NCBI GenBank assembly: GCA_020200935.1
Contig: JAIVHR010000211.1
Location: 1-11,943 of the forward strand
Length of the DNA: 11,943 nt
From: Sphingomonadales bacterium
GTDB taxonomy: Bacteria > Pseudomonadota > Alphaproteobacteria > Sphingomonadales > Sphingomonadaceae
Direction of reading: 5' to 3'
The position numbers and the translations under genes are program-made. Positions 4,598 through 11,057 of this stretch are shown piece after piece (positions within the stretch are counted from its first letter, which is position 1; each line of letters starts with the position of its first letter). Under the pieces are notes generated by a model. It was not told the DNA's origin. It saw nothing but the letters and a program-made list of their open reading frames with translations, and made no database searches.

Positions 4598-5720
4598 ATG
4601 ACCGTGGGAATCGATCGCCGCCGCTTTCTCGCAAGCCTCGGCGCCGGCGCCGCCATGCTGGCTTCCGGAACCGGCGCCCGCGCTGCCGCGCAAATCTGGA
4701 CGCCGACCGACTGGCCTTCCACCCAGGCCTTCCTCTCGGCCTACCGGATGACCACGCCACTGCCCGGCGCGATGGCCGCGATCGGCCGCGGCACCGAGCC
4801 GCCGGACTATCTGATCAGCGGCGCCAGCGCCTTCGCCGGCGGCCACTCGCTCGGCCCCGACACGATCTGGCGCATCTATTCGATGACCAAGCCGGTCACC
4901 GGCATGGCGGCGATGATTCTCGTCGATGACGGCAGCCTGACGCTCGATCAGGATATCGGTGAGCTGCTGCCCGAATGGGCCTCGCCGCGCGTGCTGACCG
5001 ATCCCGAAAATTCGCTCGACGCCCGCCCGGCGGCCCGACCGATCACCGTGCGCCATCTGCTGACCCATACCGCCGGGCTCGGCTATTCGATAGTGCCGCC
5101 GCGCCCGCTGCAGGCGGCGATCGTCGAGGCGGGGGGGGATGGGTTACGAGGAGTTCCTGCGGCGGCGGATATTCGCGCCGCTGGGCATGAACGACACCTT
5201 CTTCCAGGTTCCCGCCGCCAGGGCCGGCCGGATGACCGACAACCACGCTGTCTACCAGGGCAATGTCATCGTCGTCGATCCCGCCGATTCGATCTATCTC
5301 GATCCGCCGCCGATCGCCTTCGGGGGCGGCGGGCTCGCCTCGAGCGCGCATGATTATGACCGCTTCCTGACGATGCTGCTCGGGCTCGGCGCGATCGGCG
5401 ATGCGCGGATCATGCGCGAGGAGACGGCGCGCCTCGGCATGTCGGACCTGCTGCCCGAGGGGGTCGACAAATCGCGCATGTATGTGCCGTCGGGCTTCGG
5501 TGCGGGCGGCTCGGTGGCGATCACGGGGCAGGATCGCGGCCAGCCCGTCGGCAGCTATGGCTGGGGCGGCGCCGCGGGCACCGCGGCCTGGGTCGATCAT
5601 AGCAACGCGATTCGCGTGTCGGGCTACATCCAGCTCCTCGGGCAGCAGAATAACGATTTCCGGGCCGGTCTGACCAACGCCGTCTATGCCGACCTCGCCT
5701 CGCAGCGGGCCGACGATTAG
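4598..5720 (+). pseudogene. Serine hydrolase of the beta-lactamase/class C esterase family, Tat-exported, internally deleted and frameshifted
   Basis: From ATG 4598 (GGGGG seven nt upstream) the product has a twin-arginine signal (DRRRFLASLGAGAAMLASG, residues 6-24), then the catalytic SxxK as SMTK (95-98), and HLLTHTAGLGYS (153-164). At a run of eight G (5131-5138) the frame shifts. The next frame (from about 5136, ATG 5139) resumes with YEEFLRRRIFAPLGMNDTFF, a GGGGLASSAHDYDRF segment and the late GWGGAAGT motif, ending at TAG 5720. In this family about 55-60 residues lie between those blocks, including the catalytic Y-x-N/S motif (typically in a YS-x-x-x-D stretch). That block is absent here. 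So it is a deletion plus frameshift, not a simple indel. Intact relatives hydrolyse esters or beta-lactams in the periplasm. As written, this copy cannot be active. A sequencing or assembly error at the G-run is a real alternative. Confidence 0.85.
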
Positions 5721-6154
5721 CCCGGCCCTTCGACCCGCTTCGATTCGAGTAGCGCGCGCCAGTCGTCATCGATCGGCGTCGGCTTGCCGTCGCGCAGCCG
5801 GACGAAGACCGTCTCGCATACGGCGATGCGGCGATCCTCCTGAAAGGCCGCTTCGAGCACCCGCCAGCTCGACGAACCGATCGTCCCAATGCCCGCGGTG
5901 ACGAACACCGGCGCCGGATAGAAGCCCTCGGCGAGATAATCGATATGCACCGCCGCCACGAGACCGCGCGCGCCGACCGGCCGCCGCCCGCCCGCCAGCT
6001 CGGTCTGGAATCGGACGCGCGCATCCTCGAAATACCTGGCGATCGCGACATTGTTGAGATGCCCGTTGGTATCGAGATCGCCGTATCGTGTGCCAATCAG
6101 AATCGAGAAGGGATAGTTCGCCGGATCGAGCCGGAATGCATCGGGCTTTGTCAT
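5717..6154 (-). CDS. Acyl-CoA thioesterase-like protein, 4HBT hot-dog fold
   Basis: The 145-residue product contains TRYGDLDTNGHLNNVAIARYFEDAR (22-46), the helix-and-loop signature of YbgC/FadM-type 4-hydroxybenzoyl-CoA thioesterases, with the usual catalytic-region Asp followed by GH-x-NN. The strand HIDYLAEGFYPAPVFV (70-85) and the SSSWRVLEAAFQEDRRIAVCETVFV strands (94-118) complete a single hot-dog domain. Relatives hydrolyse acyl-CoA thioesters, and the natural substrate here is unknown. ATG 6154 is chosen because it starts just before the domain. An upstream in-frame ATG at 6184 adds 10 residues, and neither has a clear ribosome-binding site. The gene converges on the hydrolase pseudogene with a 4-bp overlap of the ends, and is divergent from the MFS gene. 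Confidence 0.85.
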   Translation of the reverse strand: MTKPDAFRLDPANYPFSILIGTRYGDLDTNGHLNNVAIARYFEDARVRFQTELAGGRRPVGARGLVAAVHIDYLAEGFYPAPVFVTAGIGTIGSSSWRVLEAAFQEDRRIAVCETVFVRLRDGKPTPIDDDWRALLESKRVEGPG

Positions 6155-6237
6155 TCGCCGGTCATTCCATATCACGCCGGGCACCGCCAGACCCGCCGCG
6201 CTTGCGTCGCCGCCCGGCGACCCATAAGCGCCGGATC

Positions 6238-7488
6238 ATGGCGAAGCGGACAGCCGACGGAAGCCTGCGCGATCTCTGGGCGATCGTCGCCGCCTTGGCG
6301 CTTGTCCAGGCGGCGGCGGCGGCGATCGGCTTCGCGATTCCGCTTTGGCTCGCCACGACCGGATCGAGCAGCTTCCAGATCGGCATCGCCGCCTCCTGCT
6401 ACATGGCGGGCTTTCTGATCGGCGCCCGGCTCGCGCCCGAGCGCATCGCCGGGCTCGGCCATATCCGCGCCTTCATCTTCTTCGCCGCCTGCGCCGGGCT
6501 CGCGATGCTCGGCTTTTTCGCGGTCGGCCCCGGTTTCCTCGCCATCGCGATTGTCGAGCTGGCGCTCGGCCTCGCCATCGCCGGGCTGTTCGCGACCGGC
6601 GAAAGCTGGATCGCCGATGCCGCGCCGGCAACCGGGCGCGGTCGGATCATCGGGCTCTATTATCTGATCGCCAAGCTCGGCACGATGGCCGGGCCGTTTC
6701 TCGTCGCCGGCTTCGCGCCCGGCGCGGCGGCCGGCTTCATGATGATGGCGGCCTTGTTCTTCTTCGCCATCCTGCCGGTCGCGACGACGTCGCAGGCGCA
6801 GCCGGTGCCGCATCCGGGCGGCGCCTTCACCCTGCGCGATCTCTGGCGCGAGGCTCCGGCGAGCCTGCAGGCGGCGCTGGTCGCCGGCGCGGTCAACGGC
6901 GCGGTGCTGCAGCTCTATCCGGTCTATCTCGCCGGCATTGCCCCGGCCGCCGGCCTCGCCGCGGTCGCCGGCTTCAATGCCTGCGCCCAGATCGGCGCGC
7001 TCTCCACCCAATGGCCGGCCGGCCTCTATTCGGACCGGATGGACCGCCGCGTTGTCATCGCCCTGCTCGCCGGTTTCGGCGCGGCGGCGGCTTTGTTGCT
7101 GGCATTGCTCGGCGATTCGCTGCCGGTGGCGATGCTGTTGCTGCTGGCCGCGCTGTGGGGTGCCGGGAGCCTTTCCTTCTACGGCATCGCGGTCGCCCAT
7201 GCCGTCGATCGGGCCGGCGAGGGCAAGGCGACCCACGCGATCGCCGGGCTGCTGATGGCCTGGGCCTTCGGCGCGACGCTCGGTCCGGTCACCGCCGGGG
7301 CGCTGATGAGCGCGGCGGCGGGCCCGCGCGGGTTGTTCCTGTTGGCGGCGGCTCTGCTCGGCCTGTTGGCGATCGCGATGGTCTATCGCCGCGCCACCCA
7401 TCGTCCTTCCCCGGCGCTGGAGAAGGAACCCTTCGCCCCGGTCAGCACGACCAGCGTCAACATCGCCGAATTCGATCCGCGCCACTAG
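6238..7488 (+). CDS. Major facilitator superfamily transporter (YcaD-like)
   Basis: A 416-residue, strongly hydrophobic inner-membrane protein with about 12 likely helices. It has a first helix at residues about 13-35 (LWAIVAALALVQAAAAAIGFAIPLW), a loop carrying RLAPERIAGLGHIRAF in place of the usual loop 2-3 MFS motif, and a central junction around 180-205 rich in small polar residues. The second half contains YSDRMDRRVVIALLAGFG, the loop 8-9 MFS signature (D-R-x-D-R-R) expected after helix 8. The pattern GESWIADAAPATGRGRIIGLYYLIAKLGTMAGPFL fits YcaD/YfkF-like MFS members. Substrate unknown. ATG 6238 is chosen because upstream in-frame sequence lacks membrane character and overlaps the divergent gene's start region. 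The C-terminal tail (about 390-416) is cytoplasmic and proline-rich. Intact. Confidence 0.88.
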   Translation: MAKRTADGSLRDLWAIVAALALVQAAAAAIGFAIPLWLATTGSSSFQIGIAASCYMAGFLIGARLAPERIAGLGHIRAFIFFAACAGLAMLGFFAVGPGFLAIAIVELALGLAIAGLFATGESWIADAAPATGRGRIIGLYYLIAKLGTMAGPFLVAGFAPGAAAGFMMMAALFFFAILPVATTSQAQPVPHPGGAFTLRDLWREAPASLQAALVAGAVNGAVLQLYPVYLAGIAPAAGLAAVAGFNACAQIGALSTQWPAGLYSDRMDRRVVIALLAGFGAAAALLLALLGDSLPVAMLLLLAALWGAGSLSFYGIAVAHAVDRAGEGKATHAIAGLLMAWAFGATLGPVTAGALMSAAAGPRGLFLLAAALLGLLAIAMVYRRATHRPSPALEKEPFAPVSTTSVNIAEFDPRH

Positions 7489-7524
7489 GGGCCGCGAAAA
7501 GACTCTGGCATTCCGCGCTCCCAT

Positions 7525-7538
7525 ATGTTATATAACAT
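7525..7538. promoter_or_regulatory. 14-bp perfect palindrome upstream of tonB, Zur-box-like
   Basis: ATGTTATATAACAT reads the same on both strands and sits in a short AT-rich island (about 7,521-7,552) of an otherwise very GC-rich region, 28 bases before the tonB start. The half-site ATGTTAT/ATAACAT resembles the operator of the zinc regulator Zur in proteobacteria (ATGTTATA...TATAACAT halves), which represses zinc uptake and some TonB-linked genes. The match is by eye. A start codon at 7,525 also falls in it but lacks a ribosome-binding site. Confidence 0.5.
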
Positions 7539-7566
7539 CATCTCATACAGGAGAAGGAGCCCGATC

Positions 7567-8214
7567 ATGCCCTATCGTTCCCCCGCCGAAAGGGGTTCGC
7601 GCATTTCGAGCCTCGCGTTGGTCGTCGGCTTGCATGGCGCGGCAATTGCCGCAGCCTTGCTGGCGAAATCGACGATCATGATGGTGCCCGAGCCGCCGAT
7701 CGTCGATATCTACAATGTCGATCCGATCGACGATCCCGAGCCGTTGCCTCCGCCCGAATCCGAAGCCGACGTGCCGTCGCCCGCGCCCTATGTGACGCCC
7801 AATCCCGTGATCAGACCTCAGCGGCCAACGATCCGTGACATCGACCCGATCGGCGATCTCGCCTTTGTGCGGCCCCCGCCGCCGCAGCCGCCGGTCACGC
7901 GCGATCCGGCACCGCCGCCGCCCCCCGTGCTGATCGATGCGCGCTTCGCTTCGAGCATGCTCGGACGGCTGCAGCCGCCCTATCCCGCGGCGCTGTTGCG
8001 CGCCGGGATCGAGGGCGAGGTCCGGGTGCGGGTGACGATCGGACCCGACGGACGGGTCAAGCGGGTCGAGAAGATCGGCGCCGGCCATGACGCTTTTTTT
8101 GAAGCCACCGAACGCCATGCCCGACGCGTCTGGCGCTTCGAGCCGGCGACCCGGGACGGTCGGCCAATCGAAAGCAGCCAGGTGCATATCGTGCGCTTCG
8201 AGATCCACGGCTGA
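7567..8214 (+). CDS. tonB: Energy transducer TonB
   Basis: TonB spans the inner membrane and passes proton-motive energy from ExbB/ExbD to outer-membrane TonB-dependent receptors. The 215-residue product has a short basic cytoplasmic end, one N-terminal membrane helix (about 14-33, SSLALVVGLHGAAIAAALLA), a periplasmic proline- and acid-rich stretch (about 40-120, with PEPLPPPESEADVP and PAPPPPPV), and a complete TonB C-terminal domain (about 130-213) including LQPPYPAALLRAGIEGEVRV, the GPDGRVKRVEKI hairpin and ARRVWRFEPATRDGRPI. ATG 7567 is chosen because GGAGAAGGAG lies just upstream, whereas ATG 7525 lies in the palindrome and would add 14 residues. No exbB or exbD is in the window. A run of seven T at 8,094-8,100 lies inside the domain, and the frame is intact. 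Confidence 0.92.
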   Translation: MPYRSPAERGSRISSLALVVGLHGAAIAAALLAKSTIMMVPEPPIVDIYNVDPIDDPEPLPPPESEADVPSPAPYVTPNPVIRPQRPTIRDIDPIGDLAFVRPPPPQPPVTRDPAPPPPPVLIDARFASSMLGRLQPPYPAALLRAGIEGEVRVRVTIGPDGRVKRVEKIGAGHDAFFEATERHARRVWRFEPATRDGRPIESSQVHIVRFEIHG

Positions 8215-8259
8215 CGCGAAGGCTGGCGCCGGCGACGCTTGGGGCCTATCCTGGCGGGC

Positions 8260-8703
8260 ATGGTCATGATCCCCCCCAAGCCCAAGGTGATCGCCGGCGA
8301 CGTCAAATCCTTCTTCGCCCGGCGCGAGCGGCATAGCTGGGTCGCGCTGCTGTTCGCGATCGCGATACCGGTCGGCATCATCTATCTCTTCGTGCTCGAC
8401 GGGAAGACCAACCTCTTCGATGACGAGCCGGTGGTGATCTATGCCGAAAGCTGGCCGCTCGACCGGAGCGATGCCGATATCCGACAGCGGCAGAGCGAGC
8501 TGGCGCTTGAGGCCGACGCCCGGCGCGCCGCCGGCCGCGAAAGCTTCCAGCGCCTCGCCGATGGCTTCGGCATCGAATATGACCGCGAAGCGGCGGCCGA
8601 GGCGGAACGGATTAGCGAAGCGAACCGGGAGCTCGCGGAACAGCTCGAGGCTCAAGAGGCCCAGGAGGCCGCGATTGCGGAGAGCTGCACTGCCGATTGC
8701 TGA
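8260..8703 (+). CDS. Small membrane protein with coiled-coil tail, function unknown, upstream of ribD
   Basis: The 147-residue product starts MVMIPPKPKVIAGDVKSFFARRERHS, has one membrane helix at about 27-46 (WVALLFAIAIPVGIIYLFVL), then a soluble part. The latter includes an acidic, charged region around 50-110 and a strongly helical, Glu/Ala-rich likely coiled coil at about 105-140 (REAAAEAERISEANRELAEQLEAQEAQE), ending CTADC. The positive-inside rule puts the N-terminus in the cytoplasm and the coiled coil in the periplasm. ATG 8260 is preferred to 8239 and 8266. The gene follows tonB by about 45 bp and its stop overlaps the apparent start region of ribD, so it is probably co-transcribed with both. 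I recognise no family. A structural role near the envelope is a guess. Confidence 0.7.
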   Translation: MVMIPPKPKVIAGDVKSFFARRERHSWVALLFAIAIPVGIIYLFVLDGKTNLFDDEPVVIYAESWPLDRSDADIRQRQSELALEADARRAAGRESFQRLADGFGIEYDREAAAEAERISEANRELAEQLEAQEAQEAAIAESCTADC

Positions 8704-8716
8704 CGACAGCCGCTGG

Positions 8717-9257
8717 ATGCGCTCGGCGATCGCGCTGTCGCAGCGCAGTCGCGGCCGGACAGCGCCCAACCCCAATGTCGGCTGCGTCATCATCCGCGAT
8801 GGCAAGCTTATCGGCCGCGGCTGGACCCGGCCCGGCGGCCGCCCGCATGCCGAGGCGGTGGCGCTCGAAAGCTGCGACGCGGCCGGCGCCGAGGTGTATG
8901 TGACACTCGAACCCTGCGCGCATGAGAGCGCGCCGCGCGGTGCTGAGCAACGACAAGGCCTGGGCGGAAGGGCTCGAGGGCGAATGGATTCACCTCCCCC
9001 GGCCAGAGGCGATAGCCGATCTCGAAAGGGCCGACCATGTCCTGGTGGAAGGCGGCGCCGGTGCGGCGGCGGCCTTTCTGGCGGCCGATCTCGTCGACCG
9101 GCTGCTCGTCTATCGCGCGCCGATCCTGATCGGGGCCGGCCAGGCGGCGGTCGGCGATATCGGGCTCGATAGGCTCGCCGATGCCCATGGCCGTTGGCGC
9201 CAGACCGATTCTCGCCCGCTTGGCAAGGACCGGCTCGAAGTCTACGAGCGTGCTTAG
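8717..9257 (+). pseudogene. ribD: Riboflavin biosynthesis deaminase/reductase RibD, large internal deletion with frameshift
   Basis: Intact RibD deaminates and then reduces the pyrimidine intermediate made from GTP. The N-terminal part from ATG 8717 has RTAPNPNVGCVI (14-25), the zinc ligand motif HAE (44-46) and the first Pro-Cys zinc-site motif, LEPCAHE (64-70). At about 8,928-8,940 the frame changes and the next residues, RRAVLSNDKAW...VLVEGGAGAAAAFLAADLVDRLLVYRAPILIGAG, belong to the end of the reductase domain, finishing DRLEVYERA at TAG 9255-9257. The second zinc Cys of the deaminase motif and most of the NADPH-binding reductase domain, roughly 130-140 residues by family length, are missing. 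The upstream end may begin at an ATT (8696), where ATG would be expected from relatives' MAD-x-x-RWM start. As written the gene cannot work. Confidence 0.85.
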
Positions 9258-9862
9258 TGTTTACCGGTATAATCACGGATGTCGGCACGATCCGGAAGGT
9301 CGAGCAGCGCGGCGATCTCAGGCTCGAGATCGCCTGCGGTTACGCGATGGACGGCGTTCCGCTCGGCGCCTCGATTGCGTGCTCGGGCGCCTGCCTGACG
9401 GTCGTCGACAAGGGCGCCGACTGGTTCGCCGTCAATCTTTCGGCCGAGACGGTGGCGCGCACCGCCCACGGCCTCTGGGACGAGGGCGGCCGGCTCAATC
9501 TCGAACGCGCGCTGACATTGGGCGAGGAGATGGGCGGCCATATCGTCACCGGCCATGTCGACGGCGTCGGCGAGGTGACGAAGGCTGAAAAGAGCGGCGA
9601 TTCGCTCGCGGTGACGGTCCGCGCGCCGGCCGATCTCGCGGCCTATATCGCCGCCAAGGGCTCGATCGCGCTCGACGGCGTCTCGCTGACCGTCAACGCC
9701 GTGCGCGATCTCCCCGACGCACTCGAATTCGATTGGAACCTGATCCCGCACACCGCCGACGTCACGACCTTCGACGCGCTCGATACGGGCCGCGAACTCA
9801 ATATCGAGATCGATATAATGGCGCGCTATTTGGCGAGATTGGCGGAGGTAAGGGCGCGCTAG
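9257..9862 (+). CDS. ribE: Riboflavin synthase alpha subunit
   Basis: This enzyme dismutates two molecules of 6,7-dimethyl-8-ribityllumazine into riboflavin plus a pyrimidine that re-enters the pathway. The 201-residue product has two similar lumazine-binding halves: MFTGIITDVG (1-10) with SGACLTV (43-49) and LNLERAL (80-86), then GGHIVTGHVDGVG (93-105) with GVSLTVN (141-147), and a C-terminal LNIEIDIMARYLARL (181-195) trimerisation helix. The start is GTG 9257-9259, which reads Met-Phe-Thr-Gly-Ile-Ile, the invariant family start. It shares one base with the ribD stop (TAGTG), so the two were translated together. Intact. It cannot be fed if the ribD and ribBX lesions are real. Confidence 0.95.
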   Translation: MFTGIITDVGTIRKVEQRGDLRLEIACGYAMDGVPLGASIACSGACLTVVDKGADWFAVNLSAETVARTAHGLWDEGGRLNLERALTLGEEMGGHIVTGHVDGVGEVTKAEKSGDSLAVTVRAPADLAAYIAAKGSIALDGVSLTVNAVRDLPDALEFDWNLIPHTADVTTFDALDTGRELNIEIDIMARYLARLAEVRAR

Positions 9863-9898
9863 CCTCTTTTCGTCACCCCAGCCTCTTCTCGTCACCCC
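9861..9898. repeat. 19-bp tandem duplication just after ribE
   Basis: AGCCTCTTTTCGTCACCCC (9861-9879) is followed directly by the same 19 bases with one T-to-C change (9880-9898). The second copy runs into the palindromic repeat at 9,891. The ribE stop TAG shares its last two bases with the start of copy one. It looks like a local slippage or repeat-insertion duplication. Confidence 0.8.
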
Positions 9899-9919
9899 GG
9901 ACTTGATCCGGGGTCCAGG
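9891..9919. repeat. Dispersed palindromic repeat, CTTGA-loop type, between ribE and ribBX
   Basis: ACCCCGGA (9894-9901) and TCCGGGGT (9907-9914) are perfect 8-bp arms around CTTGA, preceded by GTC and followed by CCAGG. It is the same repeat as at 1,795-1,822 with compensated stem bases. It separates ribE from ribBX and may attenuate or stabilise the upstream mRNA. Confidence 0.75.
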
Positions 9920-9985
9920 GCAACAGGCGGTATCGCTTGCGGCTCTCGATGGCGGGTTCCACACAACGCAATGTGCCAAAGCTAT

Positions 9986-10008
9986 TGTGAATCACATTAC
10001 AGTGTGAT
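9986..10008 (+). promoter_or_regulatory. Repeated TGTGA dyads just upstream of HTH-ribBX
   Basis: TGTGA (9986-9990), its complement TCACA (9992-9996), and a second TGTGA (10003-10007) occur within 23 bases, giving both TGTGA-A-TCACA and ATCACA-N6-TGTGAT inverted repeats, ending 12 bases before the start codon. The surrounding bases are AT-richer than the genes. This looks like an operator. The spacing does not fit a CRP site. The downstream protein carries its own helix-turn-helix, so autoregulation is a possible reading (inference). Confidence 0.45.
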
Positions 10009-10020
10009 AGGCGGCGCGCC

Positions 10021-11057
10021 ATGTCGACACCTCTCATAGAAAACATCCGCGAAATCGTCACCTCGGGCGAGTTGAGCAAGGCTGGCCTCGCCCGCGCCGC
10101 GGGGCTGCATCCCAACTCGCTGCGCAGGCTCGACGAGGAGGACTGGAACCCGACTGCCGACACCTTGAAGAAGCTCGAACGCTTCATCGTCTCGGGCGGC
10201 GGCGAGGTGATCGCCAGCGCCGAGGAGATCCTCGAAGAGGCGCGCAACGGGCGGATGTTCGTGCTCGTCGACGATGACGATCGCGAGAATGAGGGCGATC
10301 TCGTCATCCCCGCCCAGATGGCGACGCCCGACGCGATCAACTTCATGGCCAAGCATGGCCGCGGGCTGATTTGCCTCGCGTTACCGAGGCCGCGGTCGAT
10401 GTCGCGCGGCTCGCCGGGCTCAACCCCTCGGGGGTGATCTGCGAGATCATGCGCGACGACGGCTCGATGGCGCGGATGGACGATCTGATCGAATTCGCCC
10501 GGCTCCACAATCTCAAGATCGGCACGATCCGCGATCTGATCGCCTATCGCCGCCAGCACGACCATCTCGTCGAGAAGCAGGCCGAGGCGCCGTTCACCTC
10601 GCGCTGGGGCGGCGAATGGCGGGCGATGACCTTCTTCAACAAGGCGACCGGCACCGAGCAGGTGGCGCTGGTCAAGGGCAAGGTCGATCCCGACAAGCCG
10701 ACATTGGTGCGCATGCACGCGCTCTCGGCCTTTGCCGACGTGTTCGGTGAGGAGGGGCCGCGCGGCGCGATGCTCGCCCGCTCGATGGAGATCATCGGCG
10801 AAGAGGGCGCCGGCATCGTCGTCGTCATCAACCGCACGATGCAGGGCGCCTTCACGCAGGCGCTGAAGCTCAAGACCGGCGAGGCGCGGCCCGACATGGA
10901 GGAATTGCGCGACTACGGCGTCGGCGCGCAGATCCTGACCGAGCTCGGCGTCCAGGACATGATCCTGCTGACCAACACACACCACAGCCTGGTCGGGCTC
11001 GACGCCTACGGATTGTCGATCGTCGGCGAGCGGGCGGTCGAGATTGAGGCGGCTTGA
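10021..11057 (+). pseudogene. ribB: HTH-RibB fused to a degenerate RibA-like domain (RibBX type), internally deleted and frameshifted
   Basis: Intact RibB makes 3,4-dihydroxy-2-butanone 4-phosphate from ribulose 5-phosphate. From ATG 10021 the product has an Xre-like helix-turn-helix (about 10-55; [20 protein letters not shown]) and the RibB start [49 protein letters not shown] (73-120), with the acidic metal-binding loop. At about 10,377-10,384 the frame shifts to [24 protein letters not shown], the end of the RibB domain. About 70 residues are lost, including the RHETAFTVSIE and TTGISA-x-DRA blocks needed for catalysis. The rest (to TGA 11055-11057) is a GTP cyclohydrolase II-like domain with no zinc cysteines: its only Cys lies in VICEIM. 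It is thus the RibBX type described in Proteobacteria, with a non-catalytic second domain. Its stop overlaps the ribH start. Confidence 0.85.

Follow-up and report, generated by a model that had tools for sequence, protein, structure and literature searches.

Low coverage and poor assembly are recognised sources of spurious pseudogenes, and coverage and the choice of assembler are both described, in the part of the source drawn on here, as influencing them (Cooley and Wright, 2024; PMC11017572). A second precedent lies in paired-end scaffolding as laid out for Meraculous, where an estimated gap below zero is taken as an overlap and the two ends may be joined (PMC3158087). The draft genome considered here would resemble the cases of the pseudogene study (PMC11017572) in that genes that are whole in the organism look broken in a poor draft, and, under the mechanism proposed below, it would resemble Meraculous (PMC3158087) in that ends are joined at negative gap estimates. 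It departs from each in one respect. Frameshifts and internal stops are what the pseudogene study, in the passages that bear on this comparison, counts (PMC11017572), whereas in the present draft a block of 74 to 413 bp is absent at an unmarked join. Similarly, Meraculous, in the steps considered here, requires reads that splint a join (PMC3158087), whereas the joins in the present draft show little overlap, whichever program made them.

Missing central blocks in three genes of the window

The stretch of DNA analysed, hereafter the window, makes up contig C315 (11,943 bases) in full; the contig comes from a fragmented draft that comprises 2,107,072 bases in 343 contigs, has a completeness of 66.09%, and groups with the genus Parasphingopyxis. 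A sequence-only reading of the window had claimed that a serine hydrolase, ribD, and ribBX each keep their ends but have lost a central part, with a change of frame at the junction. Alignments to relatives, among them the closest complete one (G006), and Pfam profiles that are split between two frames placed all three lesions where that reading had put them, and gene order around them is the same in the aligned relatives of the same genus. The pieces and junctions are as follows.

4598..5131, + strand: serine hydrolase (Beta-lactamase fold family), N-terminal piece; PF00144 profile 14-119, E 1.7e-22; collinear with relatives
5131..5139, + strand: junction 1, within a G-run; by alignment, about 173 bp of the G006 gene have no counterpart
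5139..5720, + strand: serine hydrolase, C-terminal piece in another frame; PF00144 profile 163-309, E 1.3e-16
8717..8935, + strand: ribD, N-terminal deaminase piece; PF00383 (dCMP deaminase) profile 8-85 of 102; matches RibD of G006
8928..8940 (about 8,929-8,934), + strand: junction 2; 413 bp absent, from relatives' alignments and fits
8922..9257, + strand: ribD, C-terminal reductase piece in another frame; PF01872 (RibD_C) profile 120-194
10021..10382, + strand: ribBX, N-terminal piece (leader domain plus the beginning of DHBP synthase); PF00926 (DHBP_synthase) profile 1-52
10377..10384, + strand: junction 3; 250 bp absent relative to all eight relatives fitted
10383..11057, + strand: ribBX, C-terminal piece in another frame (DHBP synthase end and GTP-cyclohydrolase-like domain); PF00926 profile 136-191 and PF00925

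Alignment with close relatives, a check that the earlier reading had itself proposed, found the missing block in every relative that aligned across a junction: six of six for the hydrolase, four of four for ribD, and eight of eight for ribBX. In the hydrolase, the block amounts to 173 bp, or 58 residues, against G006, in agreement with the loss of about 55-60 residues that had been claimed; it measures about 174 bp in five of the six aligned relatives and about 198 bp in the sixth. The exact break is uncertain because the anchors beside junction 1 are poorly conserved, with left-anchor identities of 0.50-0.68 in six junction fits, none of which was used for block size. For ribD, fits to three of four relatives (the fourth fit was poor) gave a block of 413 bp, or about 138 residues, which bears out the claimed loss of about 130-140 residues; the figure becomes 428 bp if an adjoining natural length difference is included. 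For ribBX, where the position, the central loss, and the frame change were all borne out, the claimed size of about 70 residues was too small, as all eight fits gave 250 bp, or about 83 residues.

Among the neighbouring genes of the window, gltX, the MFS gene, the TonB C-terminal domain, ribE, ribH, prs, and a pyrE-like gene each match Pfam in a single frame, and the first five had been read as intact beforehand (tonB is judged here by its C-terminal domain). Three further observations concern the window itself. At 85-334 lies a remnant of the C-terminus of an IS1595/ISXO2-type transposase with a 2-bp frame change, the G006 homologue of which matches Pfam DDE_Tnp_IS1595; the window thus contains one ordinary lesion as well. 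An intergenic repeat lies at 9884-9955: the query had 63 matches in the draft (a number that includes some single places counted on both strands), and every one of them except the window's own covers about this stretch, at 75-90% identity, so that it looks like a dispersed REP-type element. Between tonB and ribD, an open frame of 154 amino acids (8239-8703), in which a hydrophobic stretch can be seen by eye, had no match in a Pfam search.

Recurrence of the lesion in the draft

A systematic sample was drawn from the rest of the draft by taking every 8th contig from C4 to C316, that is 40 of 343 contigs, of which 12 read wholly as N; together with the window it held 210,680 readable bases. The sample was compared with genes predicted, and picked by codon usage, in about 1.6 Mb of G006, and those with an orthologue in that part of G006, a total of 96 genes on 15 contigs, were comparable. 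Eight of these 96 genes, including the three of the window, showed a central loss of at least 74 bp. The other five, with the length lost relative to G006, are listed here.

C28: rho, 141 bp
C92: dnaE, 104 bp
C100: sdhA, 74 bp
C244: coxB, 149 bp
C300: phoR, 223 bp

The frame is kept across the rho loss and shifted by the other seven, a proportion expected where the reading frame is of no account. The same method found no such loss among 112 genes of seven congeners, nor among 46 genes in eight more loci of one relative (G008), which partly overlap. The difference between eight of 96 and zero of 112 gave a Fisher exact P of 0.0017, or 0.015 if the window is left out (five of 87), with the understanding that the control set comes for the most part from around the rib genes, comprises other genes than the 96 of the draft, and was held to an identity floor of 50% as against 55% for the draft. 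Within the seven control genomes there were three small frame changes (about -56, -1, and +5 bp) and no missing block of at least 40 bp, and the eight further G008 loci showed two in-frame insertions of 54 bp. Three of nine compared genes carry a lesion in the window, against five of 87 in the rest of the sample, and this higher density needs either poorer local coverage, which is the presumed cause, or another reason. Seven further partial loci of the draft, which stand outside the 96, contributed 10 genes and no lesion.

Other differences in the sample were kept outside the count of eight. C52 has a 117-bp in-frame loss (at 55% identity) and a 2-bp frame change, C204 a 45-bp in-frame loss, C100 an insertion of 42 bp, and C244 an insertion related to a repeat; the transposase remnant, with its 2-bp change, was likewise set aside. 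Also outside the count is a 40-bp loss with a frame change in ccmB, in a diverged stretch at about position 10,300 of locus L067 (G000:C244). Among the 96 genes, a single stop occurs in each of four aligned stretches, and the stop in C244 lies near the end of its alignment. The counterparts of positions 1-2116 and 3971-14373 of locus L061 (G000:C196) are separated by about 1.85 Mb in G006 and by about 90 kb in G008, which may reflect either a rearrangement or a misjoin.

The identity of the struck genes bears most directly on the cause. Rho in the draft is without profile positions 155-204, which contain the ATP-binding P-loop. Among nine relatives Rho is complete in six, partial in two fragmented ones (positions 2-248 in G001; positions 2-154 and 290-415, on separate contigs, in G003), and represented by a weak match only in one (G007). 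DnaE, the replicative polymerase, is split in the draft into two pieces that lie in different frames and lack positions 485-519 between them; it is whole in seven of nine relatives, a nearly whole open piece in one, and a fragment in one, itself a fragmented draft. The genes rho and dnaE, and also sdhA and coxB, are indispensable, and a dividing bacterium that lacked both rho and dnaE could not live. Since these two are struck, the causal process most likely lies in the assembly and not in the organism.

Compensation by a second gene copy was considered and, for the part of the genome that the draft covers, rejected. Searches of the draft, from which about a third of the genome is absent, gave weak matches only for a second rho (24.3 bits or less in a profile search), a single weak partial match for a second ribBX (29.5 bits), and none for a second ribD. 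The sole other dnaE-like gene in the draft (C78) falls below the family cut-off, as do the second copies of the relatives.

Origin of the missing blocks

It is very probable that the three lesions of the window are assembly artefacts of one kind or another, and the collapse or loss in assembly that had been named among the possible causes in the sequence-only reading is strongly supported by the finding that indispensable genes elsewhere in the draft are struck in the same way. A scaffolding route specifically, in which contig ends are tied by read pairs, is likely. By this route, stretches of some 170-410 bp would have been left unassembled at each of the three window sites, presumably because low local coverage caused holes. 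The two contig ends would then, most likely, have been tied by read pairs, and where the gap was judged to be about zero or negative the ends would have been abutted without Ns.

Three N runs, of 6, 17, and 83 bases, lie inside the sampled contigs, and such short runs suggest the mark of a gap-estimating scaffolder. Where C244 has its 6-N run, G006 and G008 each have about 320 bp, so that the run is short by about 315 bp, an error that comes from one of the three runs, relatives not being aligned on both sides of the 17-N and 83-N runs. That six Ns stand in place of about 320 bp indicates that gaps in the draft were squeezed; with one such gap put at close to nothing, an estimate only a little lower would come out as zero or negative. 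A fixed error of about 315 bp alone would not hide the 413-bp gap in ribD. Joining at zero gap would fit the block sizes of 74-413 bp, the few bases shared at the junctions, and the lack of regard for frame.

The dropout of coverage driven by GC content is not supported as a cause, because the missing blocks are not clearly GC-richer than their own genes. Their GC was 0.59-0.70, against 0.61-0.71 for the genes, in a range for which the ribD block was misfitted; on refitting, the ribD blocks (413 bp) gave 0.67-0.73 and the ribBX blocks 0.64-0.72. The earlier argument that GC-rich junctions favour template or assembly loss is thus not supported, and the G-run that had been reported at the junctions is found at that of the hydrolase and not at those of ribD and ribBX.

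Another kind of artefact, in which strain variants collapsed in the assembly graph or amplified molecules were chimeric and carried deletions, is unlikely, though it has points in its favour: strains are mixed in metagenome drafts, short overlaps are possible in chimeric joins after whole-genome amplification, and six bases are shared at the rho junction and, depending on the relative, up to six at that of ribBX. Against G006, the shared bases number two for sdhA, two for coxB, one for phoR, and zero for dnaE, while the ribBX junction shares 0-6 across eight relatives and the ribD junction 1-5 across four; these numbers vary with the relative because relatives stand in for the missing sequence of the draft species itself. 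An overlap of 0-6 bases would be smaller than a k-mer based path normally needs, and the N runs of 6, 17, and 83 bases, the measurable one of which is short by its 315 bp or so, point instead to a gap-estimating scaffolder. At the rho junction, a real deletion could also yield both the six shared bases and the in-frame loss.

That the deletions are real, and reflect gene decay in a lineage that is giving up riboflavin synthesis along with other functions, is very improbable. The breakpoints are clean, and two of the three window genes belong to one pathway, as such a process might produce, but rho, dnaE, sdhA, and coxB are struck alike, and within the cluster ribE and ribH are whole. Decay under relaxed selection is likewise not supported by the pattern of substitution, which in the eight struck genes is not distinguishable from that in 86 other compared genes (Mann-Whitney P 0.55), amino-acid-changing substitutions not being raised, in a test that very recent gene loss would escape. 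Genuine short-homology deletions by slippage in the organism are less probable still. The six bases shared at rho, and the maxima of six at ribBX and five at ribD with some relatives, would suit them, while the same window junctions share 0-2 bases with other relatives and those of dnaE, phoR, sdhA, and coxB similarly few with G006, so that the shared bases speak neither for nor against such deletions; the main objection, on which this candidate was rejected, is that essential genes are struck. It is scarcely credible that part of the sampled population belongs to a Parasphingopyxis lineage that accumulates real, clean excisions of 70-410 bp, with rho and dnaE among the genes hit, and survives alongside intact kin, or that has an undescribed excision process.

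Implications for gene loss in draft genomes

The finding is almost certainly an ordinary artefact and not a real biological feature. Unmarked joins of this sort mimic clean deletions, and work on gene loss, auxotrophy, or excision that draws on draft environmental genomes can be led astray by them. Inspecting rho, dnaE, and further indispensable genes of a draft for a like lesion is quick and helps to separate artefact from biology when raw reads are not available. Taken at face value, the draft would mark its organism as a riboflavin auxotroph whose esterase is broken; in the living cell, the hydrolase, ribD, and ribBX genes are most likely full-length.
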